Assembly: GCA_029556545.1 (NCBI GenBank)
Contig: JAKQEQ010000007.1
Location: 15,031 to 79,030, forward strand
DNA from: Candidatus Hydrogenedentota bacterium
GTDB taxonomy: Bacteria > Hydrogenedentota > Hydrogenedentia > Hydrogenedentales > JAGMZX01
Length of the DNA: 64,000 nt
Direction of reading: 5' to 3'
In this document: in pieces, positions 19,841 to 33,114 of the stretch
How positions within the stretch are numbered: position 1 is the first letter of the stretch
Layout: every line of letters begins with the position of its first letter
The notes under the pieces: model-generated
What the model saw: the letters and a program-made list of their open reading frames with translations, nothing else
Database searches by the model: none
What the model was told of the DNA's origin: nothing
Position numbers and translations under genes: made by a program

Positions 19841-20131
19841 TTGACGCCCAGAGACTTTCGGTCTATCATGGAGTTGGACGAAACGCGACGAGGGTTGCAC
19901 GACAGAATTGAAGTCAATGACCGAGCGCGCGTGATCGCATCGCCCTGCTGCGACGCCACCGCAGTGTGGGAATCCCGATGGGCTCCGTGCGCGAGGCGGG
20001 GGTAAGGCTGTCGCGTCGATCATTCGCCGTGAAATTCCAAGTGGGCATGGAGTGCATGGGTAAACCGCCTCTGCCTGCCCGAAATGTTTGTGCGCGTGGT
20101 GGGACAGAGGCCCTCTAAGGAGGCAGAAGCG
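19841..20131 (+). promoter_or_regulatory. Promoter and about 255-nt leader of the GEGEG protein gene
   Basis: TTGACG (19841-19846), 17 bases, TATCAT (19864-19869), so transcription would start about 19876. This leaves a 255-nt leader before the ATG at 20132, where a strong RBS (AAGGAGG at 20117-20123) lies. No conserved frame fills the leader. The rest of the 465-base gap (19718-19840) shows nothing I can name. Confidence 0.55.
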
Positions 20132-22351
20132 ATGTATCAGGTCATCAGGAGTGTATCGAGCGTCGGGGGGCTTGTGGCGGCTTTCGTCTTGATCGGAGGG
20201 GGAGCGGCTTTCGGGGAGGTGTGCAATGCGCCGGATAACGGCGGCACCGTGGCGCTTCCAGCGAACTGTCCCTACGTGAATCAAGGGGGTACGCTGGACA
20301 TCGTGGACGGCCTACCACCCGGCACCACGATCCAGATCGATTACCAGATAGACAGTTTTTTTGACGTCTTTACGGAGGTCGGCGGTGACTTGGGCGGACA
20401 ACAGATTACCTTCGGCGCAACTATGCGAATGAAGATGACCGGTACGGGGATGCTTGCGGGCTACACGTATGCCCTCGACATGCCGCTGCTGTCCGTGGTC
20501 GAACACACGGCCCCACGCACGCCGGGCCAACCGGTGCAGCGTTTTGCCTGCCAGTTGTTCCAACTCGACGGGCAGGTGACCGGCGATTCGCTTTTCGATC
20601 TCCTTCGAGTCGAGTCGGGCACCGACGCGGGCCTTCTCGCCGCAGGTCAAACTATACTGACCCAACTTCCCGGCGGTGACTGGCACGTGGACAGCTTCTT
20701 TGATATCACGTACCGAATCGAATTTGTCGGGGCGCCCGGCGGGCCGCTCGCGGGCATGTCGGGTACGAGCACAGACACGGTCCGCACCCAACAGGGGGAA
20801 CCCTACCCGTGGGACCACTGCAACGTCTTCAACATCGAGTTTGGTGATGCCGGCGAATTTCTCGGCGGCGGCGGCGACGGCTGGAACGGCGACGGCCTAG
20901 GCCCTTGGTACTATTACGAGAACACCGATTGGTGGAACGAGTGGTATTACGACGGCGAACTCGACCTGGAACGCTATAAGGACGTGTGGCTGCAGTTGAA
21001 CGTCAACCCCACTGACGTGGGATCTAACGTCACGATCGCTCTCAACTACAGTTCCGGAGGATACCCGCCCGCCACAGGGGAGCCGCCGGTTCCGCCACTA
21101 GACCCGGTCGACGAAGAGCAGTGGATCGTCCGAGACATCCTGTACGGACCTATCGAGGTGACGGGACCCACACCGCTTGACTTTTTCGTGAATATTCCGG
21201 ACTTCAACCCGGAATGGGTCTCCATTGACGTGCGGGGCGTGGACGTGTTGATCAACGGCACGATCTGCCATTCCTGCCTGCCGGCGGCCGAAGGCGAAGG
21301 CGAGGGGGAGGGCGAGGGCGAGGGTGAAGGTGAAGGCGAGGGTGAAGGCGAGGGCGAGGGCGAGGGCGAAGACTGCCCTCCCGACACCATCTACGGGCAA
21401 CGACCGTTTACCCCCTTGGAGCCTGTGGCGTACTTCCCGAGCGATGAGACCGCCGCGCTCTTGGGCTATCCGTTGCCATGGGACAACTTCCCGCCGCCGG
21501 GCGTGCCGATCTGCGACCTGCATTGGTGGGGTTTTGAAGTGGACGCGACAACGGCGCCCTGTATGCGCGCGCCGGATTTGTTCAATATCGATATTGCCGT
21601 TGATGTCGGTGGACATGCGGGTCCCCCTGTGTGCACGTACACCGTATCGGCCACGAAGACGAACACGGGTATCAGCTATCTCGCCTACACGCTCTACCGA
21701 TATGACGCGGTGCTGGATCCGTGTTGTGTACTTCCGCCGGGAACAATGGGCTGGCTGAACATACGGGGCACGGGCAGCATGGCCTGCTTGTTCGTCTGGC
21801 TCGGTTCGCCGCAGGGCGACGGGCAAATGACGCTCTTCAGCAGCAGCACGGGATTCGTCCCATACGCCGGCGATCTCAGTTTCTGCCTGACGCCCGGGGG
21901 CGCGGAAGGTGAGGGCGAAGGCGAGGGTGAGGGCGAGGGTGAGGGCGAGGGCGAAGGCGAAGGCGAAGGCGAGGGAGAATGCGTAAACAATCCCCAAGGG
22001 TGCCCGCAACCTTACGGCGGTCTCTACGAGGTTGGCGGCGAGCTTTGCTTGTGCGTGCCGTGTCCCATCTCCGCAACCACCTCGTTCGTGTGGGCTAAAG
22101 ACGGGATTGCGCTCGCAAATGACGGGCGGATCACCGGCGCTACCGCCCGGACGCTGCGCATCCTCACGCTGGTGGAAAGCGACAGCGGGGTGTATTCGTG
22201 CATCTACGACGACGGGACAAAGGTGGTGCAGGTCTTCGAGGCCCATGTGGTCGTGGGTGAAAACGTGCCCGCGTTGGGGCCAATCGCCCTCCTCGTGCTT
22301 GCCGCCGCGTGCGGCGCCGCAGGGGGCGTTATGCGATATAGACGCCGCTGA
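20132..22351 (+). CDS. Exported protein with two GEGEGE linkers, an Ig-like domain and a C-terminal membrane anchor
   Basis: A 739-residue exported protein. Residues 1-28 are a signal peptide (VGGLVAAFVLIGGGAAFGEV). A large N-terminal region (30-385) with many aromatic and acidic residues is unrecognised. A (GE)n linker follows (DNA 21290-21370), then a second unrecognised domain (395-590), a second (GE)n linker (21905-21978), and an Ig-like domain with the pattern W-KDG, LESDSGVYSC-like VESDSGVYSC (about 625-705). The C terminus is NVPALGPIALLVLAAA, a hydrophobic helix and RYRRR, resembling a tripartite cell-surface sorting tail. It is likely displayed on the outer surface; function is unknown. 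Start ATG 20132 rather than the earlier in-frame codon at 20084, since the RBS and signal peptide fit. Confidence 0.75.
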   Translation: MYQVIRSVSSVGGLVAAFVLIGGGAAFGEVCNAPDNGGTVALPANCPYVNQGGTLDIVDGLPPGTTIQIDYQIDSFFDVFTEVGGDLGGQQITFGATMRMKMTGTGMLAGYTYALDMPLLSVVEHTAPRTPGQPVQRFACQLFQLDGQVTGDSLFDLLRVESGTDAGLLAAGQTILTQLPGGDWHVDSFFDITYRIEFVGAPGGPLAGMSGTSTDTVRTQQGEPYPWDHCNVFNIEFGDAGEFLGGGGDGWNGDGLGPWYYYENTDWWNEWYYDGELDLERYKDVWLQLNVNPTDVGSNVTIALNYSSGGYPPATGEPPVPPLDPVDEEQWIVRDILYGPIEVTGPTPLDFFVNIPDFNPEWVSIDVRGVDVLINGTICHSCLPAAEGEGEGEGEGEGEGEGEGEGEGEGEGEDCPPDTIYGQRPFTPLEPVAYFPSDETAALLGYPLPWDNFPPPGVPICDLHWWGFEVDATTAPCMRAPDLFNIDIAVDVGGHAGPPVCTYTVSATKTNTGISYLAYTLYRYDAVLDPCCVLPPGTMGWLNIRGTGSMACLFVWLGSPQGDGQMTLFSSSTGFVPYAGDLSFCLTPGGAEGEGEGEGEGEGEGEGEGEGEGEGECVNNPQGCPQPYGGLYEVGGELCLCVPCPISATTSFVWAKDGIALANDGRITGATARTLRILTLVESDSGVYSCIYDDGTKVVQVFEAHVVVGENVPALGPIALLVLAAACGAAGGVMRYRRR
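21290..21370 (+). repeat. (GE)n-encoding repeat, linker 1
   Basis: Imperfect hexanucleotide repeat GGCGAG/GGTGAA encoding alternating Gly-Glu. Synonymous codons vary from unit to unit. Confidence 0.9.
21905..21978 (+). repeat. (GE)n-encoding repeat, linker 2
   Basis: Second hexanucleotide repeat of the same gene encoding alternating Gly-Glu, again with mixed GGC/GGT and GAG/GAA codons. Confidence 0.9.
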
Positions 22352-22417: not shown

Positions 22418-22577
22418 GCTCTTGTTGCCAAGATCCGTAGTGTTTCTGGGCGGTTGTCGCCCTCTTCCCGGCTGTGTTCCAGCTTCCTGCATCCTGTTTC
22501 CGTTCATCCGTTCTGTTATCATGGCGCCCGCGTGGCCGGTATTTGCGTTTCTCGGTCCGATACGTGGAGAGTGCCCG

Positions 22578-23930
22578 ATGACAAAACGGCAATATGTGCT
22601 TCTATCTCTGATCATGGCGGCCTGCTCGTTTCTGGGCGGCGCCGTCGCCTCGTTCTTCTTTCACGGCGTTCCGGTGTATGCGGCGAGTCCCACGCTGCGC
22701 GCCGAGCAACTCGTGCTCGTGGACGCGCGCGGCAAAATACGCGCGGCGCTCGGCGTCACCAGCGACAACGTGGCGAAACTGGGCTTCTTCGACGCGGCGG
22801 GCGCGCCCGCGGGCGCCGTCGGCGCGGCGCCGACCGCGGGGGGCGGGCTTGGCTTCTACGACCGCCGCGGTCTGCTGCGCGGCCTCGTCTCGATGGCCGA
22901 CGACGGCGCGACCGCCATCGGACTTTACGACAAGGAGGGCGTGTCGCGGGTCGCGCTTGCCATCGACGGCCAGGGCGCGGGCTCGCTCAGTTTCGACGAT
23001 GGCGCGGACCAGCCGCGACTGCTCCTTGGCGCGGGTGCAAGCGGCGCGCCGGCAATCAGCATGCGCGACGCCGCAGGGCGCGCGCGGCTGGCCCTCAGCA
23101 TGACACAGGACAATAAGACCGCCCTCGGTCTCTACGACGAGAGCGGCTTCGCCCGCGCCGCCACCGTGGTCTCCGCCGATGGCACGGCCAAGCTCGGCAT
23201 CTACGGTAACGCGGGCGCGGCCAGCGCCGTGCTCGCCACCACACCCGGCGGCGCCACCGAACTGGGCCTCTACGATGCCGCAGGGCAGGCCCGTGTCTCC
23301 CTCGGCGCGGGCGCGGACGGCAGTTCGACCTTGAGCCTTCACGACGCGGAAGGCACGGCCCGCGCCCTGTTCGCCGCCCGCGTCGACGGCGAATCCCGGC
23401 TCGTGTTCAACGACCCGCAGGGCGTGGTCCGCGCCGCCATCGGCGCGGGCTCGAACGGCGCGCCCGCCCTCGGACTGCGCGACGCCGCGGGGGTAGACCG
23501 CGTCGCGCTCGTCCTCGCTGAGAGCGGCATGCCGTCGCTGAGCCTCCACGACGGCGCGGGTGCGGGCAGAACCGCCCTTACCGTGGACGAAGAAGGGCGG
23601 TCAAGCATCGAATTCGCTGATGCCGCCGGCACGGTACGCAGCGCCGTTGGCGCTGCCGCGAACGGCGCGCCTTCCTTGAGCCTGCGAGACGCCGCCGGCG
23701 TGAAGCGGCTCGCCCTCGCCGTCGGGGTCGATGGGGCGACCACGCTGTTCTTCGTCAACGCGGACGGATTGCCCCAAGCCTCCCTCGCCGCGCAGCCCGG
23801 CGCCAAGCCAGGGCTCAGCTTCTACAGCGATGCCGGCGATACCTTGGCCGTCTTCGGCGTCAGCCCGGACGACAAGCCCGCGCTCATCCTCAAGGACAAG
23901 GATGGCAACGTGACTTGGTCCGCGAAGTAG
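22578..23930 (+). CDS. Exported protein built of about 27-residue beta repeats
   Basis: A 450-residue protein that I cannot assign to a named function. Residues 1-35 are a signal or anchor (YVLLSLIMAACSFLGGAVAS). The rest is a regular repeat with the pattern L-G-L-Y-D-X-X-G-X-X-R-X-X-L, then 10-14 residues, then the next copy (ALGLYDESGFARA, ELGLYDAAGQARVSL, TLSLHDAEGTARALF, ALGLRDAAGVDRVAL, SLSLHDGAGAGRTAL, SLSLRDAAGVKRLAL). About thirteen copies fill residues 45-445, ending ALILKDKDGNVTWSAK. Such spacing fits a beta-solenoid or a beta-roll on the cell surface, but the fold is inferred. RBS GGAG sits 8 bases before ATG 22578. The gene stands alone between a terminator and the MarR locus. Confidence 0.7.
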   Translation: MTKRQYVLLSLIMAACSFLGGAVASFFFHGVPVYAASPTLRAEQLVLVDARGKIRAALGVTSDNVAKLGFFDAAGAPAGAVGAAPTAGGGLGFYDRRGLLRGLVSMADDGATAIGLYDKEGVSRVALAIDGQGAGSLSFDDGADQPRLLLGAGASGAPAISMRDAAGRARLALSMTQDNKTALGLYDESGFARAATVVSADGTAKLGIYGNAGAASAVLATTPGGATELGLYDAAGQARVSLGAGADGSSTLSLHDAEGTARALFAARVDGESRLVFNDPQGVVRAAIGAGSNGAPALGLRDAAGVDRVALVLAESGMPSLSLHDGAGAGRTALTVDEEGRSSIEFADAAGTVRSAVGAAANGAPSLSLRDAAGVKRLALAVGVDGATTLFFVNADGLPQASLAAQPGAKPGLSFYSDAGDTLAVFGVSPDDKPALILKDKDGNVTWSAK

Positions 23931-24059: not shown

Positions 24060-24088
24060 TTGCACTTCGCATTATTTCCTGTTATGAT
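24060..24088 (+). promoter_or_regulatory. Promoter of the MarR-GNAT/racemase locus
   Basis: TTGCAC (24060-24065), 17 bases, TATGAT (24083-24088). The -10 lies partly inside the 24-bp palindrome at 24085-24108. Confidence 0.65.
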
Positions 24089-24108
24089 ATTTCCCATGCA
24101 AAATATCA
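24085..24108. promoter_or_regulatory. 24-bp palindromic operator, probable MarR binding site
   Basis: TGATATTT (24085-24092) and AAATATCA (24101-24108) are perfect 8-bp inverted arms around an 8-base centre that holds CATG, itself symmetric. The site covers the end of the -10 element and the expected transcription start, and lies 16 bases before the start codon of the MarR-GNAT gene. This is the position and form of an autorepression operator for a dimeric winged-helix repressor. Confidence 0.7.
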
Positions 24109-24124
24109 ACCAAGAGAGGCGCTC

Positions 24125-25189
24125 ATGCCCTTGACCGACTGCGAAGAAATGGTTGTCGAGCTGCGTAAGATCATACATTTACTTGACTTACACTCCAGAT
24201 GGCTAAACCGGGAATATGCGCTGACCAGCCCACAACTGGTCTTCCTGAAGGAGATTGGCGGCCAGGAAGGCATCACTATCGGGGACTTGGCCAAGCGGAC
24301 CAGCCTCAGTTGCGCCACGGCCACAGGCATTGTGGACCGTCTCGAACGGCGCGGTTTGGTGGCGCGCAGTCGAAATGGGCGCGATCGGCGTCAGGTACAA
24401 CTCCACTTGACGCCAACTGGCCGCGAGACCTGCGAACGCCGCCCGCCGATACTGCAGGAGACCTTCGTGCAGGGGTTGGAGCGTCTGGAACCCGCGGAAC
24501 GGCGGCGGCTTCTGGACAGCCTGCGACGGTTGACCGCGATGATGTCGGGCCTGGTGGAAGACCGTATGCCATCCCCCGCGGCGGTCGCGGAAATACTGGC
24601 GAACGCTCCGGAGGCCGCCTGCGCGGCTCAGGATTCGCCCGCGGAGTTTCTCGAGTCCTGTCGCATGTTGTTGGCGGGCGCCTCGAATGCGGATTCCCCC
24701 GACGCCGCTCCAGGAAACGGGGGGCCGGACGGGGTAGGTATCCATGTGGCGCGCTCGCGAACGGCGCTTGAGGCGCGCGTCGCTGTACCCGCGCTTGCCC
24801 GATTCCTACACGAGCACCTCAAACCTTACGAGGATCCGGAAGACGCGGTCCTCGAAGGCATCGAATACGCGCTCTCGGAGGAGCCGGGCAAGGGCGGATT
24901 CGTGCTGCTGGCCGAACTGGACGGCGAATTGGCGGGCGCGCTGGTGATGCTGAACACGGGGATGCGCCGCTACGTGCCGCCGAACCTGCTCCTGTTCATC
25001 GCGGTGGACGCCGCACACCGGGGCCGGGGTATCGGTGCCCGACTTGTTCGTAAGGCGCAGTCGCTGGTGGAAGGCGACATCAAGCTGCACGTCGAGTACG
25101 AGAATCCCGCACGTCGCTTGTATGAGCGACTCGGTTTCTCCAGCAAGTACGCGGAAATGAGGTGGGCTCATGAGCCGCGTAACGGTTAA
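24125..25189 (+). CDS. MarR-family regulator fused to a GNAT N-acetyltransferase domain
   Basis: A 354-residue two-domain protein. Residues 1-145 are a MarR winged helix (LTSPQLVFLKEIGGQEGITIGDLAKRTSLS, ATGIVDRLERRGLVARSR, DRRQVQLHLTPTGRE). A linker of about 60 residues follows. Residues 200-350 are a GNAT fold with the acetyl-CoA loop AVDAAHRGRGIGARLVRKA and the C-terminal EYENPARRLYERLGF. The fusion may sense an amino or amide metabolite and both modify it and control transcription. It heads a locus with a racemase, a methyltransferase and a symporter, and its gene overlaps the racemase gene by 20 bases. A perfect 24-bp palindrome over its promoter suggests autoregulation. Start ATG 24125 has GAGAGG upstream. 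Confidence 0.88.
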   Translation: MPLTDCEEMVVELRKIIHLLDLHSRWLNREYALTSPQLVFLKEIGGQEGITIGDLAKRTSLSCATATGIVDRLERRGLVARSRNGRDRRQVQLHLTPTGRETCERRPPILQETFVQGLERLEPAERRRLLDSLRRLTAMMSGLVEDRMPSPAAVAEILANAPEAACAAQDSPAEFLESCRMLLAGASNADSPDAAPGNGGPDGVGIHVARSRTALEARVAVPALARFLHEHLKPYEDPEDAVLEGIEYALSEEPGKGGFVLLAELDGELAGALVMLNTGMRRYVPPNLLLFIAVDAAHRGRGIGARLVRKAQSLVEGDIKLHVEYENPARRLYERLGFSSKYAEMRWAHEPRNG

Positions 25190-26258
25190 TATCGAGGCGC
25201 TTTCGGCGAACCTCGAGGCCATAGACCGGTTGATGACCGGTCACGGCGCCGCCTGGACGCTGGTGACCAAGGTGCTGTGCGGCAACACCGCCATAATGCG
25301 GGTGCTCGCGTCGATGGGCGTGCGCTCGGTCGGCGAGTCGCGGCTGACGCACCTGCGTGCCGTACGCCGCGTCTTCGAGGACCCGGAAACCTGGTACCTG
25401 CGGATTCCCCGGCTCTCGATGTGCAACACCGTGGTCACAATGGCCCACGTAAGCCTTAACAGCGAAATCGAGACCATTGCGCGCTTGAACGAAGCCGCGG
25501 CCGCCAAGGACAAGGTGCACCGCGTCGTCATCATGATCGAACTCGGCGACCTGCGCGAAGGCATTCTGCCCGGCTCGCTCATCGCCTTCTACGACGCGGT
25601 CTTTCGCCTGCCGCACATCGAGGTCATCGGGATCGGCACGAACCTCGGCTGTCTGGCCGGCGTGCCGCCGACCGTCGACCAACTGATGCAACTGGTGCTC
25701 TATCGCGAATTGCTCGAACTCAAGTTCAATAAGCCGTTGCCGCTTATTTCGGCTGGCTCCAGCGTTGTCTTGCCCTTGCTTGTCGAAGGACAGGTTCCCA
25801 AGGCCATCAATCACTTTCGGATCGGCGAGGCCCTGTTCCTGGGCTCGGACCTCGTGCATGGCGGTACGCTGCCGGGGTTTCGGGACGACGTCATGCTCCT
25901 CGATGCGGAGATCGTCGAGTTGAAGGAGAAGGGCATGGCGCCGATCGGCGAGAGCGGGGTGACATCCCCCTTCCAGGCCATGCCCAACGGAGATGCCGCG
26001 CCCGGACAGCGCGGTTACCGCGCGCTGGTAAGCATGGGCCAGCTGGATACGGAGATCACGGGGCTGACGCCGACCCAACCGGACTACCAGATTGTCGGGG
26101 CCAGCAGCGACATTACCGTCGTCAACATCGGCGAGAACCCGCGCAACCTGCGTATCGGCGACACGGTAACGTTCCGCATGAATTACGCCGCGCTGTTGCG
26201 CCTCATGAGCAGCCGCTACGTGACGAAGGAAATCATTGGCACAAGGGAGGATGGCTGA
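25170..26258 (+). CDS. Alanine/ornithine racemase family PLP-dependent enzyme
   Basis: A 362-residue cytoplasmic enzyme of the alanine racemase N-terminal (TIM-barrel) superfamily, closest in pattern to the ornithine racemase group. K34 in TLVTKVLCGN is the expected PLP lysine; other group motifs are GVRSVGESRLTHL, VSLNSEIETI, VIMIELGDLREGI, IGIGTNLGCLAG and KAINHFRIGEALFLG. It likely interconverts L- and D-forms of an amino acid; whether ornithine or another amine is unclear. Start ATG 25170 lies inside the MarR-GNAT gene and has GAGGTGG upstream, so the pair are probably coupled. A methyltransferase gene follows after 33 bases. Confidence 0.85.
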   Translation: MSRVTVNIEALSANLEAIDRLMTGHGAAWTLVTKVLCGNTAIMRVLASMGVRSVGESRLTHLRAVRRVFEDPETWYLRIPRLSMCNTVVTMAHVSLNSEIETIARLNEAAAAKDKVHRVVIMIELGDLREGILPGSLIAFYDAVFRLPHIEVIGIGTNLGCLAGVPPTVDQLMQLVLYRELLELKFNKPLPLISAGSSVVLPLLVEGQVPKAINHFRIGEALFLGSDLVHGGTLPGFRDDVMLLDAEIVELKEKGMAPIGESGVTSPFQAMPNGDAAPGQRGYRALVSMGQLDTEITGLTPTQPDYQIVGASSDITVVNIGENPRNLRIGDTVTFRMNYAALLRLMSSRYVTKEIIGTREDG

Positions 26259-26291
26259 CCGCGCCGCGCCCGCGACGGGAGGACAGCACAG

Positions 26292-27338
26292 TTGAAGCTA
26301 CATGAACGGATTGCCAGCGACCTGTCTACGTGGAACCGCTGCGCCCGCGCGTATGAAGATGCGATTGTGCTCGGACACCCGGACGTGTGCGCCTATGAAG
26401 CCTTCGAGGAGGATTTCCTCGATGCGCTTCTCCTGTACCTCATTCGTGACGCGGGCGTTTGCGTGCGATTGTTCGACGTGGGTTGCGGCTCGGCCCGGCT
26501 GCACCTGCGCTACGGCAGGAAGACCACGCCGCTTCCGCGAAATGAAACGAATGGTTCCATCGCGCCGGACCCCATCATGGCCGCGGGCCTGTCGCGGATA
26601 GACGGCATCGACTTCTCCGCGGAGATGCTCGAAATCGCGCACGCCAAGCTTGAAGCCGCCGGCCTGCTCCCGAGGGCGGCCGACCGTATCGGCCTCCGGC
26701 AAGGGTCGGCGTTCGATCTCGAGGCCATGCCCGGCGAGGGCGTTCCGGTGGCCGTGGCGGTGTGTAACACCATCGGCGTCATGCAAGGCCCCGAAGGCGC
26801 GCGAAAGCTGCTCGATGCCGTGCGCCGCGTCGTCGAACCGGAGGGCGGCGTCGCGCTGATCAGCGCATACCGGAAAGACGCCGTCGCCAGCCACGCACTC
26901 GGCAATTACGAAAGTACCATGCACGTTTCCGGCCAGCCGTGTTGGCTGAAGCCGGCGAAGTTTGTGTCGCGCGACGTCGTTCCCGTCCCTCTCGATATCA
27001 AGCGCGCGTTCGACCCGAAGGCGACGATTCGCGTTGCCGCGCGGAACCAGGCCGGCGAAACCGTCGAGGAATACCTCCTTGAACGCGACCCCGACGAAGT
27101 AAAGCGGACGATTTCAAGGGGCCACATTCGGACGTATTGGGATTACGAGTCGCACTGGTACTCGACGGCGCGCCTGCGTCGATGGATGGATGAAATCTGG
27201 GCCGGGCTGCCGCACCGGCATATCGCGGGCGGCGCCCTCGACCGTGTGCGCGCCGGCCCCGCCCAGTTGGCCGTGCTCGACGCGGGCGGCAGGCTCGAGG
27301 CCTTCTTCGCGCGCCTCGGTATGCGGAAAGGAACGTGA
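26292..27338 (+). CDS. Class I SAM-dependent methyltransferase
   Basis: A 348-residue protein with a Rossmann-fold methyltransferase core. Motif I is VRLFDVGCGSARLHL (about 58-72); an insertion of about 30 residues (RKTTPLPRNETNGSIAPDP) separates it from motif II GIDFSAEMLEIA. Then QGSAFDLEAM, VAVAVCNTIGVMQGPEG, and the motif-VI-like EGGVALISAYR. The C-terminal 130 residues (TYWDYESHWYSTARLRRWM) are unassigned and may bind substrate. It starts with TTG at 26292, supported by GGGAGG 9 bases upstream. Lying between a racemase and a sodium symporter gene, it may methylate an amino acid or amine; this is an inference from context. The next gene begins 4 bases after its stop. Confidence 0.82.
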   Translation: MKLHERIASDLSTWNRCARAYEDAIVLGHPDVCAYEAFEEDFLDALLLYLIRDAGVCVRLFDVGCGSARLHLRYGRKTTPLPRNETNGSIAPDPIMAAGLSRIDGIDFSAEMLEIAHAKLEAAGLLPRAADRIGLRQGSAFDLEAMPGEGVPVAVAVCNTIGVMQGPEGARKLLDAVRRVVEPEGGVALISAYRKDAVASHALGNYESTMHVSGQPCWLKPAKFVSRDVVPVPLDIKRAFDPKATIRVAARNQAGETVEEYLLERDPDEVKRTISRGHIRTYWDYESHWYSTARLRRWMDEIWAGLPHRHIAGGALDRVRAGPAQLAVLDAGGRLEAFFARLGMRKGT

Positions 27339-27342
27339 CGGC

Positions 27343-29178
27343 GTGAGCGGCAACTGGATTATGTGGGCCATCGTGCTTGGCTATCTCACCTTCGTGTTTT
27401 CGAAGGGCGTGCTCAAGGTGCGGCAGGTCTCAAATACGGACGACTTCCTCGTGGCGGGCCGGAATGTGGGGTGGTTCTTCCTTCTCTGTACAATGGGCGC
27501 GACGGTTGTGGGCGGCGGCGCGTCCATCGGCGCGATCGGGCGCACCTACGACTGGGGCGTGCTCATGCTCCTCGTGTCCTTGGGCTGGTACCTGCACTTC
27601 ATTTTCGCCGGCCTTTGGGTGGCGCCGCGCTTTCGCGAGGCGAAGTTGTACACCGTCGCCGGATATTTCGGCCATCGCTTCGGCGAGGGGCCGCGCTTTT
27701 TCGCCCTGTTATTGTCCCTATTGTTCTCCGTCTTTATCGTCGCCGCGCAAATGGCCGCGTTCGGCAGCGTCATGGCGGCCATTGCGCCGCAACTCGCCGA
27801 TGCCGAGAACGTGCTGCGCTGGGCCATCCTGATCGGCGGCGTGCTCGTGATCACCTACAGCACGGCGGGCGGCCTGCTCGCCGTGATCCACACGGACGTA
27901 TACCAGTTCATCATCCTGATCGTGGGGTTCGCCATCACCCTGGCGTTTTGCGTGCCGGACCTCCTCGAATCCTACGACGACCGCACCGGCAAGTTCGTGC
28001 CATTGCGCTTCTCCAGCGTGGATATACGGTCCCCGGAGGCGTTCGCCGAGACGTTGGGCCGCGGCGACGATCCCGTGGCCCGTTACCTGCTCGAGACCGC
28101 GGGCGCCGCGGAAGCGACGAATGACGGGAAGATCGACGCGGCCGCGATCGCCGCGATGCTCAATCGCGCCCTCGACGACCCGGAACTGTACGCCCCGGAA
28201 CGCTTCGCCCATGTATCGCTCAGCCGCCAGGTGCGCGAGTTGCTCGAAGGTGAGGCCAACGGAAGACGGCTACGGCGGCTGAATCTCTCGCTAATCCAAG
28301 ACGCCTTTCCCGACTTCATATCGCCAAACCGCGCGATAGCGCCGTCCTTCTTTCGCATGCATGGCGATAAGGGGTGGCTCTTCCTCATCACCACCTTTCT
28401 CGCTTTTCTCCTCGGCGAGTGTTTCGCGCCCGGGTATGCGACCCGGTACTGCGTGGGCAAGAACATCCGCGAAACCCGCATCGGCATCGTCGGGGCCGGC
28501 GTGTTTCTCGCCTTGGTCTTTCCCGCGATTCTTTTCTTCATCGCCCTGTACGCGCGTATTCATTACCCGGCCATCGACCCGCAACAGGCATTGCCGCGCG
28601 TCGTGTATCAACTGCACAATCCCGCAATCACGGGCCTCATCATCGGCGCGCTGCTGATGGCCGTCATGTCCTCCGCCGACAGCGCCCTCAACTCGGCTAC
28701 CGCCATCTTCGTCAAGGACCTTTTCGAGCACCAATTCGGCTGGCGCGACGACCAGCGGCATCGCCTCCTCAAACTTGCCCGCCTGTGCAGCATGGCCCTC
28801 GGCGGCATGGCGATTCTTGTCGCTGTGCTCTGGTCCGACATCATCGGCCTGCTCTTGTTCACCTACCACGTCTGGGCGCCCGCCGTTATTGTGCCCGTGT
28901 GCGTGGGCGCGCTGTCGCGCAGTCCCTCGCGCCGCCAGAACCGCATTGTGCTCGCCACCATGATCGCCGCCACCGCCGCCACGCTGCTCTACCGCCTGCC
29001 CCAGGCACTCGAACACCACTTCGGGCTGCGCATCCTTCCAGATGCACTGCACGACTTGACCGCCCGTCTCGACCCCGCCGTATTCGGCGTCGCCGTGTCC
29101 CTGCTCGTCTTTGGCGCGCTTACCGGGACCGCAAGGGGGCTCTACGGCCCCGCGCCCAAGTTCACCCAAGGCGGATGA
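27343..29178 (+). CDS. Sodium:solute symporter (SSS) family transporter with a large insertion
   Basis: A 611-residue inner-membrane symporter. GTG 27343 is preferred: AAAGGA lies 9 bases upstream and the reading continues right after the methyltransferase stop; the ATG at 27361 is an alternative. Core SSS motifs: NTDDFLVAGRNVGWFFLL after TM1, GATVVGGGASIGAIG in TM2, TYSTAGGLLAVIHTDVYQFI in TM5-TM6 and MSSADSALNSATAIFVKDL, the sodium-site helix 8 signature. Between TM6 and TM7 (about 210-340) sits a hydrophilic insertion of roughly 120 residues with mixed-charge helices, which ordinary members lack. It probably imports an amino acid, amine or related solute for the racemase and methyltransferase upstream. 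Confidence 0.88.
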   Translation: MSGNWIMWAIVLGYLTFVFSKGVLKVRQVSNTDDFLVAGRNVGWFFLLCTMGATVVGGGASIGAIGRTYDWGVLMLLVSLGWYLHFIFAGLWVAPRFREAKLYTVAGYFGHRFGEGPRFFALLLSLLFSVFIVAAQMAAFGSVMAAIAPQLADAENVLRWAILIGGVLVITYSTAGGLLAVIHTDVYQFIILIVGFAITLAFCVPDLLESYDDRTGKFVPLRFSSVDIRSPEAFAETLGRGDDPVARYLLETAGAAEATNDGKIDAAAIAAMLNRALDDPELYAPERFAHVSLSRQVRELLEGEANGRRLRRLNLSLIQDAFPDFISPNRAIAPSFFRMHGDKGWLFLITTFLAFLLGECFAPGYATRYCVGKNIRETRIGIVGAGVFLALVFPAILFFIALYARIHYPAIDPQQALPRVVYQLHNPAITGLIIGALLMAVMSSADSALNSATAIFVKDLFEHQFGWRDDQRHRLLKLARLCSMALGGMAILVAVLWSDIIGLLLFTYHVWAPAVIVPVCVGALSRSPSRRQNRIVLATMIAATAATLLYRLPQALEHHFGLRILPDALHDLTARLDPAVFGVAVSLLVFGALTGTARGLYGPAPKFTQGG

Positions 29179-29419
29179 GATCCCGACGTGCGAGATATCT
29201 CGGTCGTGGCGCACGGGGGATGCTGCTCGCGTTGATGTCCCGCATGTGCTGGACTGCCCCGAGGCAGCGTCAACATGTTCAGGCCCGTAACTTGGAAGAG
29301 CTTTTTGGACGGGACGTTCCGGTATTGGCATGAGAATCCACGCCTCGGGGTGATTCTGCCAGTATCCCCCGCATATACTCTGTGGCGCGTCGGGATACCT
29401 GAGGCAGGGGGTGAGACCC

Positions 29420-30397
29420 ATGGAAGTGCGCCGCATCTCGAGTCCGCCGCCCAATGCGGCGGCGTTTATTGCGGAGATTGCCGCCGGAATCGAAGCGCTT
29501 TACGGGCCTCTAGCCGCGGAGCATTATCGCCGGACGGCCCCTGAAGGGTTGTGCGCTACCTTGGCCCATCCGACGGTGTACGCCGTGGCCGCGTTCAACG
29601 AATGGGGTGAGGCGCTGGGTTACCTCGTCGCCGTGCAACGGGCGCCTGCGGCGCACATCACGTTCCTTCATGTCCTGTCGGGGTGGGACGGACAAAGCAT
29701 CGAGAACCGGCTGGTCGAGCGCGCGGCGGGCGACTTCCAGCGCGCCGGCCTGGACCATATCGTGTGCGAGTGTGTCCCTTTCTGCCGCCTTGACCTTTCG
29801 TGCACGTTCTCGGCGTTCGGTTTCGAACGCATCGAGCGTGTTCTGATGATGGCTTCGGTGCAAGACACGGGGAGCGCGCCAAAGGCCCGAGCGCCGATCT
29901 CTTCCGCTGTAGCCGGTCCTTCCACCCCGCGGGTTCTAACCCTGGATGCCGGCCTCCGGCGTGCGGCGGCGGAGTGCCTGGTGGAAGCGTATCGCGACAG
30001 TCGTGGGCGTCGGCTTCACATGGAGGTCACGGATGTAGACCGTGCCCAGGTCTTTGTCTCGCGCGTGGCCGCGGGCGGTTTTGGCCATGTCCACGCGGAG
30101 TACGGCAAGGCGGTTTTCGAAGGGGACCAATGCGTGGCCGTCGCGCTTGGCTGCGAGACCGCGCCGGACGTCGGGTTTGTCCTGCAGGTGGCGGTCCGGC
30201 CCAAATGGCGCCGGCAAGGATTCGGCACGTTACTGCTGCACGAACTGGCCGCGTCGTTCCGGCAGACGGGGCTGACGCGCGTCGCGCTCGGCGTGACGAG
30301 AGACAATCCCGCGCGTCTGCTCTACGAGCGGCTTGGCTTCACCGCGTTGCGTCCCGTCGACGCCTACGTCTGGTGGCGGCCGGGGCGGGAACCTTGA
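29420..30397 (+). CDS. Tandem GNAT-domain acetyltransferase
   Basis: A 325-residue protein with two GNAT folds. The first (1-150) is degenerate: GYLVAVQRAPAAHITFLHVLSG aligns with the central strand, but the acetyl-CoA pyrophosphate loop is not canonical. The second (170-320) is intact, with FVLQVAVRPKWRRQGFGTLLLHEL (R/Q-X-X-G-X-G/A loop) and GVTRDNPARLLYERLGFTAL. Double GNATs such as mycothiol synthase use one lobe for catalysis and the other for structure. The substrate is not known. Start ATG 29420 follows AGGGGGTGAG; an in-frame GTG at 29411 is inside that RBS. It follows the symporter by 241 bases with no visible terminator, so co-transcription is possible. The intervening bases hold no other gene. 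Confidence 0.8.
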   Translation: MEVRRISSPPPNAAAFIAEIAAGIEALYGPLAAEHYRRTAPEGLCATLAHPTVYAVAAFNEWGEALGYLVAVQRAPAAHITFLHVLSGWDGQSIENRLVERAAGDFQRAGLDHIVCECVPFCRLDLSCTFSAFGFERIERVLMMASVQDTGSAPKARAPISSAVAGPSTPRVLTLDAGLRRAAAECLVEAYRDSRGRRLHMEVTDVDRAQVFVSRVAAGGFGHVHAEYGKAVFEGDQCVAVALGCETAPDVGFVLQVAVRPKWRRQGFGTLLLHELAASFRQTGLTRVALGVTRDNPARLLYERLGFTALRPVDAYVWWRPGREP

Positions 30398-31779: not shown

Positions 31780-33114
31780 TTACGGTCTCCGCCACGGCGC
31801 GAACACCGCCTGGTATCCCAGGTGTATCATGTATTGATCCAGCAGGATGATTGCCAGGAACGCCTCGGCCACCGGCCAGACGCGCGCCACGATGGTCGGG
31901 TCCCGGCGCGTAACCGCCGACAATACCTTATTTTCGAGCGAGACCTTGTCGATGGTCTCCTGATCCTTCGCGATGGTGGGCGTCGGCTTCACCGCGATGC
32001 GTGCGACGAGCGGCTGGCCCGTGGTCAGCCCACCCGTGACGCCGCCCGCGTGGTTCGACGCGAACACCACCTTCCCGTCCGTCACGCGCAGCGCGTCGTT
32101 GCATTCCGAGCCGCGCAGGTCTTTCACCGCGTAGCCCGCGCCCACCTCGACCGCCTTCACCGCGCCTATGCTCAGCATCCTGCCGATTTCGCCGTCGAGC
32201 TTCTGGAACACGGGTTCGCCCATGCCCGCGGGCAATCCCGTCGCGACAACCTCGACGAGGCCGCCGCTCGAGTCGCCTTCGTCGCGGATTTCGAGGATGC
32301 GCTGCTCCATCGCGAAGGCGGCGTCCACGTCCGGGCAATTCATGGTGAAATGAATCCCGTGTTCCTCGCGGATGGCTTGTGGATCGACCGCCTTGGCCGT
32401 GTCGCGGATTTTGAGCAGGTCGCGCTCAAGTTCGGCGATCACGGCCATCTTGTGCAGGAACCGCATGTGCGGGTTGATCCGGCCCTCGCCGAAAACCCAC
32501 TGGTAGATTGGGTCGTAATCGCGGCGCACCTTGCGGAAGGTCTCGACCTTCTCGCGCGCCGTATCGAGGGCCACGTCCGCCGCGCGAACGCCCGCCGCCT
32601 CCTTCACATACGCGAATACCTCGATGCCGTGCTCCTTCAGGATGCGCCGCGCCACCGCGCCCGCCGCCACAATCGTCGAGGTGTATCGTCCGCTGAAGAA
32701 GCCCGCCCCGATCGAGTCGTCCCATTCGGCGTATTTCTGATACGAGGCGTAGGAAGCGTGCCCGGGGCGCGGCGTCCGATTCGTCACCTGGTACTGCTCG
32801 ATGTGCTCGAAGTGACGGTCCACGTTCGGGATCAGAATCGTCATCGGCGTGCCGTTCGTATAGCCCGCGTTCGAGAAGCCCGGCATCGTGTCCGCCGCGT
32901 TCACGCCCGTGTAGATGACCGGCACGTCCGCCTCACGCCGCGGCGAGGCCAATTCGCTCTGGCCCGGCTTGCGCGTGAGCAGCGCCTCATAGATATCCGC
33001 GTCCGTAATGTACAAACCCGGCGGCACGCCCTGAAGCACCACCGTCAGCCCTTCCTGATAACTGCCCCCCGCCACTGTCGTCTGGAACATCGTCCCGTAC
33101 GTACAACCCAGCAT
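31780..33114 (-). CDS. aroC: Divergent chorismate synthase family protein
   Basis: A 444-residue protein that aligns with chorismate synthase along its length: VLQGVPPGLYITDADIYEAL, RKPGQSELASPRREADVPVI, RPGHASYASYQKYAEWDD, VVATGLPAGMGEPVFQKLD, FASNHAGGVTGGLTTGQPL and PVAEAFLAIILLDQY. The enzyme forms chorismate from EPSP using reduced FMN. Two changes stand out against known enzymes of about 360 residues. The N-terminal FGESHG motif, with a conserved active-site histidine, reads VAGGSYQEG. The GGGRSSARET phosphate-binding loop reads GAGFFSGRYTST. There is also an insertion of about 80 residues around 185-270 (KVRRDYDPIYQWVFGEGR). RPGHA histidine is kept. It may be a bona fide but diverged enzyme or a relative with another role. 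Start ATG 33114 has GGGAG upstream. Confidence 0.75.
   Translation of the reverse strand: MLGCTYGTMFQTTVAGGSYQEGLTVVLQGVPPGLYITDADIYEALLTRKPGQSELASPRREADVPVIYTGVNAADTMPGFSNAGYTNGTPMTILIPNVDRHFEHIEQYQVTNRTPRPGHASYASYQKYAEWDDSIGAGFFSGRYTSTIVAAGAVARRILKEHGIEVFAYVKEAAGVRAADVALDTAREKVETFRKVRRDYDPIYQWVFGEGRINPHMRFLHKMAVIAELERDLLKIRDTAKAVDPQAIREEHGIHFTMNCPDVDAAFAMEQRILEIRDEGDSSGGLVEVVATGLPAGMGEPVFQKLDGEIGRMLSIGAVKAVEVGAGYAVKDLRGSECNDALRVTDGKVVFASNHAGGVTGGLTTGQPLVARIAVKPTPTIAKDQETIDKVSLENKVLSAVTRRDPTIVARVWPVAEAFLAIILLDQYMIHLGYQAVFAPWRRP

Follow-up and report, generated by a model that had tools for sequence, protein, structure and literature searches.

N-Acetylation and racemisation of an amino acid meet in the DgcN-DgcA pathway for D-glutamate, in which an N-acetylation enzyme is encoded beside an amino-acid racemase/epimerase; this pathway employs DUF1611 and an enolase-type epimerase. 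The ectoine cluster is a second point of comparison, combining the MarR-type regulator EctR, the GNAT N-acetylation enzyme EctA and a transporter. The locus described here, found in a 64,000-nucleotide stretch of DNA (the window) on contig C19 of a 6.1-Mb Hydrogenedentota genome (G000), shares features with both. Unlike the DgcN-DgcA pathway, it pairs a GNAT acetyltransferase with a PLP racemase and has no DUF1611 in the unit (no Pfam match in the four locus proteins; a DUF1611 gene is present beside a sister-clade racemase in L058). Unlike the ectoine cluster, it has a racemase and a methyltransferase, and no match to EctA, EctB or EctC was found among the locus proteins with Pfam or NCBIfam. 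An earlier interpretation of the DNA letters, hereafter the sequence-only reading, knew of no described pathway with this gene combination, and we likewise found none in the open-licence literature, which is weak evidence of novelty.

Four plus-strand ORFs at 24125-29178 of the window encode a MarR-GNAT fusion, an ornithine-racemase-like PLP enzyme, a SAM methyltransferase (MT) and an SSS-family Na+ symporter (Table 1). The first two overlap by 20 bases, and gaps of 33 and 4 bases separate the racemase gene from the MT gene and the MT gene from the symporter gene, exactly as the sequence-only reading had described them. Its assignments of a MarR regulator fused to an acetyltransferase and of a PLP enzyme of the ornithine/alanine racemase family also held up in Pfam and NCBIfam searches, with scores of 59.7 bits for MarR and 48.7 bits for GNAT in the fusion protein, and of 61.4 bits for Ala_racemase_N and 297.7 bits for racem_Orr in the racemase. 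In comparison with a genome of the same genus (G040), pN/pS is 0.31 for MarR-GNAT, 0.25 for the racemase, 0.29 for the MT and 0.21 for the symporter, indicating purifying selection on all four genes. The double-GNAT gene does follow the symporter, as had been reported, but we rejected it as a fifth member because it lies 232 bases downstream and no homologue turned up at the three other Hydrogenedentota copies of the cluster. The search for a terminator between the symporter and this gene was negative; the nearest plus-strand terminator-like site behind the symporter (29444) sits within the double-GNAT gene.

Table 1. Features of the locus in window coordinates.
Feature	Position	Strand	Basis or remark
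Possible sigma-70-like promoter (TTGCAC 24060-24065, 17 bp, TATGAT 24083-24088)	24060-24088	+	Read in sequence
Putative MarR operator, ATATTTCC-CATG-CAAAATAT	24087-24106		Core of larger inverted repeat
MarR (N-terminal) fused to GNAT acetyltransferase (C-terminal)	24125-25189	+	Pfam/NCBIfam; copies in L006/L007 67/58% identical
Ornithine-racemase-like fold-III PLP enzyme	25170-26258	+	NCBIfam racem_Orr; AF2 model; GNAT-paired clade 100/100
SAM-dependent class I methyltransferase with cap insert (about residues 196-307)	26292-27338	+	Methyltransf_25; AF2 model; Foldseek/VIA-align
SSS-family Na+/solute symporter, GTG start, insertion of ~115 residues	27343-29178	+	SSF/sss; L006/L007 80/77% identical
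Double-GNAT gene	29411-30397		Start 232 bases downstream of symporter

Within Hydrogenedentota, the MT is present in 4 of 68 genomes. The window genome, G040 and G015 carry all four genes in the same order; in G020, an ORF judged sulfatase-like by eye comes after GNAT-racemase-MT. Ten loci emerged from a scan of GTDB contigs with the MT alignment. The nine new ones come from MAGs named Acidobacteria, Verrucomicrobia, Coatesbacteria, Armatimonadetes, Chitinispirillaceae (three), Deltaproteobacteria and Sumerlaeota, and in each of these the genes stand in the order GNAT-racemase-MT-SSS on a single strand within the reach of the contig. A further complete locus, L048 (genome G109), comes from the phylum of Chitinispirillaceae. 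The order GNAT-racemase-MT-SSS is found in at least eight phyla including Hydrogenedentota, while the flanking genes vary from locus to locus. The racemase is upstream of the MT in all 14 MT-bearing loci, the symporter follows the MT in 12 of the 13 with a long enough contig (the exception being L008), and the GNAT is immediately 5' of the racemase in 29 of the 30 testable GNAT-paired loci. These locus counts are samples, drawn from 1650 genome searches in total, in which some genomes were counted repeatedly; going by record titles, most or all members are MAG contigs, and phylum names outside the GTDB scan are inherited from the search centre. No MT homologues were found in plasmids or in viral contigs. 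In L016, a gene for a MarC-family membrane protein, perhaps an exporter, intervenes between racemase and MT (L016:2168-2770).

Conservation of order and strand in at least eight phyla argues that the arrangement is not due to chance, and its maintenance across these mostly uncultured phyla at roughly 40-65% protein identity argues for selection on a joint function. The sequence-only reading had proposed related genomes as a check, in which scattered genes would have spoken against it; the genes are not scattered. Distance matrices of the genes also correlate, with r = 0.88 for racemase-MT, 0.65 for racemase-SSS and 0.63 for GNAT-MT (0 of 2000 permutations as high), and r = 0.58 for GNAT-racemase and 0.55 for MT-SSS (at most 2 of 2000). 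The GNAT-SSS correlation is weak (r = 0.26, 169 of 2000 permutations as high).

Racemase-profile searches of phyla, together with reading of the gene neighbourhoods, provided the basis for counting modules. Six loci contain GNAT-racemase-SSS without the MT (one in a Hydrogenedentota genome and five in genomes from the Acidobacteria-phylum search), and nine contain the GNAT-racemase pair with neither MT nor SSS. When placed in a tree with a comparison set of 14 Orr-like racemases without an adjacent GNAT, all 31 racemases of GNAT-paired loci fall into one clade (100/100). The presence of the MT requires seven changes on this tree, at least four of them forced by well-supported branches, and thus the MT has been repeatedly gained or lost. 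In these neighbourhoods, the GNAT-racemase pair is the core, with MT and SSS as modules that come and go. Other loci combine similar functions from different parts. L100 contains MarR, SSS, GNAT and racemase genes, its SSS being distinct and PutP-like, whereas L095 contains a GNAT, an M20 amidohydrolase, an alanine racemase, an Orr-like racemase and a PutP-like SSS. MarR is a separate neighbouring gene beside GNAT-racemase in L096, where it is divergent, and in L100. The separate MarR genes of L096 and L100 and the distinct PutP-like SSS of L095 and L100 argue for independent linkages of the same functions. The M20 amidohydrolase of L095 scores 180 bits to the N2-acetyl-diaminobutanoate deacetylase DoeB2, under its cut-off, and, with the alanine racemase, points to N-acetyl-amino acids.

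In the sequence-only reading, the regulator could sense the product. MarR control of this locus is backed by a dedicated candidate operator. A perfect inverted repeat, TGATATTT-N8-AAATATCA, lies at 24085-24108, 5' of the MarR-GNAT start, and this 24-bp palindrome matches nowhere else in the 6.1-Mb genome with up to two mismatches allowed; no second operator site that would indicate a wider MarR regulon was found there. The start regions of the loci compared give the operator consensus ATRTTTTG-N4-CAAAAYAT. Of 10 MarR-fusion loci, all from Hydrogenedentota and Acidobacteria, 9 carry an exact half-site (CAAAATAT or ATATTTTG) no more than 70 bp upstream, versus 0 of 14 MarR-less GNAT loci; the tenth, L090, has a variant differing by one base. 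The half-site 8-mer occurs once in the window. The nine loci share kinship and hence are not independent events, although their surrounding upstream sequence differs. A palindrome just 5' of the regulator's own gene is a feature of a MarR-autoregulated operon. A consensus promoter scan gave one promoter-like site, that of Table 1, a count no higher than in shuffles and weak alone. Since the putative operator repeat overlaps the possible -10 element, repression by the fused MarR domain would be the natural reading. Regulation of this kind is not general, since many members lack MarR.

The racemase resembles Orr (NF040742) over its full length (profile positions 3-351 of 351) and in its fold. 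In contrast to Orr, its score lies under the curated 480-bit cut-off, which was exceeded in none of ten related genomes; it is paired with GNAT, MT and SSS, and the GNAT-paired enzymes form a clade of their own. Its AF2 model (pLDDT 83.8) has the two-domain fold of fold-III PLP racemases and retrieved serine, alanine, lysine and broad-spectrum racemases in Foldseek at E values of about 1e-17. The racemase profile had no match at 0.01 among PDB sequences.

For the MT, Methyltransf_25 scores 31.6 bits against a Pfam gathering score of 27, and the domain is found in all 13 MT members scanned (E<=0.01). The sequence-only reading was right in calling this protein a methyltransferase, but what it took for an unassigned C-terminal domain is a cap within the fold. 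The AF2 model (pLDDT 89) has a complete class I fold in which, by strand order, roughly 110 residues of cap separate core strand 187-194 from the last two strands (308-312 and 324-330), and structural alignments extend to residues 331-338. Among its best solved matches in Foldseek are glycine and glycine-sarcosine N-methyltransferases, ToxA, CypM, TylM1 and the histidine N-methyltransferase EgtD, and the model is that of a class I enzyme resembling small-molecule N-methyltransferases. The glycine and glycine-sarcosine enzymes and EgtD, whose substrates are amino-acid amines, share with the MT the class I fold and extra parts around the active site, but only 12-17% sequence identity.

The MT could also be imagined as an azetidine-2-carboxylate synthase, since VIA-align placed VioH first (Z 19.3) and AzeJ fourth (18.4), both similar in overall class I fold. 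Ordinary methyltransferases tie with these (ChlM, 19.1), however, and the signatures of azetidine-2-carboxylate synthases, PFNxxGN and RxxYYxxC (PMC11794875), are absent from 13 of 13 MT members. As such, we find this identity barely credible and ruled it out. Many other methyltransferases follow within a few Z units, and O-, C- and tRNA methyltransferases are also among the top ranks; the fold thus does not decide the substrate.

The symporter scores 119.4 bits for SSF (PF00474; gathering score 22.8), but far under the curated cut-offs of all the substrate-specific subfamilies PutP, PanF and MctC. Its closest solved relatives by sequence are choline transporters, which match best, and a putative sodium:solute symporter. 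The large insertion noted in the sequence-only reading is genuine, with 189 residues between two fixed motifs versus 72-75 in relatives without it. The Hydrogenedentota copies, L010, L092 and L094 carry an insertion of ~115 residues, as do, by alignment lengths, L016 and L093; it is absent from L012-L014, L017, L048, L090 and L091. Going by SSS topology, we take it to be a loop, probably periplasmic. The conserved motif LGE[CTA]FAPGYATR contains a glutamate that could fit a cationic substrate.

The sequences show the four genes to be a conserved unit with catalytic folds, whose MarR-fusion versions share an operator-like palindrome. We give about an even chance to their being a MarR-autorepressed cassette that takes up a small, probably basic amino acid, racemises and N-acetylates it and, optionally, N-methylates it. 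The MarR domain would repress the operon from 24087-24106 until the amino acid or a derivative binds; the symporter would import or recapture a small amino acid of zwitterionic or cationic character, the likeliest being ornithine or a diamino acid like it; and the racemase would interconvert its L and D forms. The GNAT would N-acetylate it, on a diamino acid plausibly at the side-chain amine, sparing the alpha-amine for the racemase, and the MT, where present, would N-methylate the product. PLP racemases require a free alpha-amine, and with one common substrate for three enzymes, a side-chain-acetylated diamino acid would be the simplest arrangement. The best hint of ornithine-like substrates for this enzyme group comes from a sister Orr-like group, in which L054 joins the racemase to an arginase-family domain within a single ORF. 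Counting against the proposed cassette are the racemase score of 297.7 versus the 480-bit Orr cut-off and the weak correlation of GNAT-SSS distances, and GNAT and class I MT folds take very varied substrates. The import, racemisation and modification of an amino acid that had been suggested from the letters fits insofar as a racemase goes with an acetyltransferase and a methyltransferase, but the methyltransferase step is optional, as the six and nine loci without it demonstrate.

Such a cassette could serve to use or detoxify a D-amino acid, or to make a modified solute or signal. It would be a discrete piece of D-amino-acid chemistry, with racemase, acetyltransferase and methyltransferase together with their own transporter and candidate operator, and, if true, it would explain what a subfamily of ornithine-racemase-like enzymes and an MT family without specific annotation do, and might uncover a new metabolite. 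In a bolder version, which we consider unlikely, a MarR-controlled pathway has spread horizontally through many uncultured phyla; it would produce an undescribed D-amino acid, N-acetylated, N-methylated and probably ornithine-derived, recapture it via its own sodium symporter and use it as a solute or as an extracellular signal.

The same genes could instead serve salvage or detoxification, with the symporter importing environmental D-amino acids, a reversed racemase yielding the L form, and acetylation (with methylation) trapping or detoxifying the unusable remainder. SSS proteins are importers in most cases, which would favour this account. Its racemase-acetyltransferase logic parallels the DgcN-DgcA D-glutamate route (PMC10845958, PMC12363236), and L095 adds an M20 deacylase and a second racemase. 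Nevertheless, the unit has no conserved oxidase, deaminase or other catabolic enzyme, and a methyltransferase would be superfluous for salvage, so that we regard this account as possible but on the doubtful side. In a further account, the genes would synthesise a compatible solute (an amino acid bearing N-acetyl and/or N-methyl groups) and the symporter would take it back up. This account would draw on the likeness of the MT fold to glycine-sarcosine N-methyltransferase and on a choline transporter being, among solved structures, the closest to the symporter by sequence. Diamino acids with an N-acetyl group are known as solutes, N-alpha-acetyl-alpha-lysine being an example (PMC4685198). A racemase is unusual in solute synthesis, however, and no EctA/EctB/EctC-type enzymes were matched among the locus proteins. 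The habitats are not clearly salty either (groundwater is named for one member, and there are 'Zod' isolates, presumably from Zodletone spring). Overall, solute synthesis is distinctly unlikely in our view.

Were the genes neighbours through shared mobility, with no joint pathway, the coming and going of MT and SSS, including the seven MT changes on the racemase tree, would be expected. But eight phyla keep the order despite different flanks, the genes diverge in a correlated manner, and MarR and SSS have been repeatedly linked to the GNAT-racemase pair, all of which makes this explanation very unlikely. An anti-phage defence role was rejected, PADLOC having returned only generic HTH and MT-domain similarities.

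Several further observations concern relatives of the racemase and the surroundings of the locus. The L054 fusion (L054:1486-3450) is possibly a bifunctional arginine-to-D-ornithine enzyme, and the racemase ORFs of L052, L053, L056 and L057 are of similar length (about 655-670 aa). In the Verrucomicrobia-phylum search, DUF1611, an Orr-like racemase and YcaO were found in a row in L058 (4-3674, by Pfam) and in L060 (by eye), a cluster that to our knowledge is not described in the literature. In a Hydrogenedentota genome, a D-Ala-D-Ala-ligase-like ATP-grasp gene lies immediately 5' of an Orr-like racemase that, like those of L054 and L058, belongs to the sister group (L032:1-1930). Within the window, an ORF of 755 aa at 20084-22351 contains two long runs of a Gly-Glu repeat, (GE)n, and matches no Pfam model above its cut-off, and the ORF at 22422-23930 (502 aa) consists of short repeats around 'LGLYDxxG' with no Pfam or NCBIfam match. 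At 31780-33114, on the minus strand, a 444 aa chorismate synthase matches its 351-position model in two stretches, which suggests an internal insertion.
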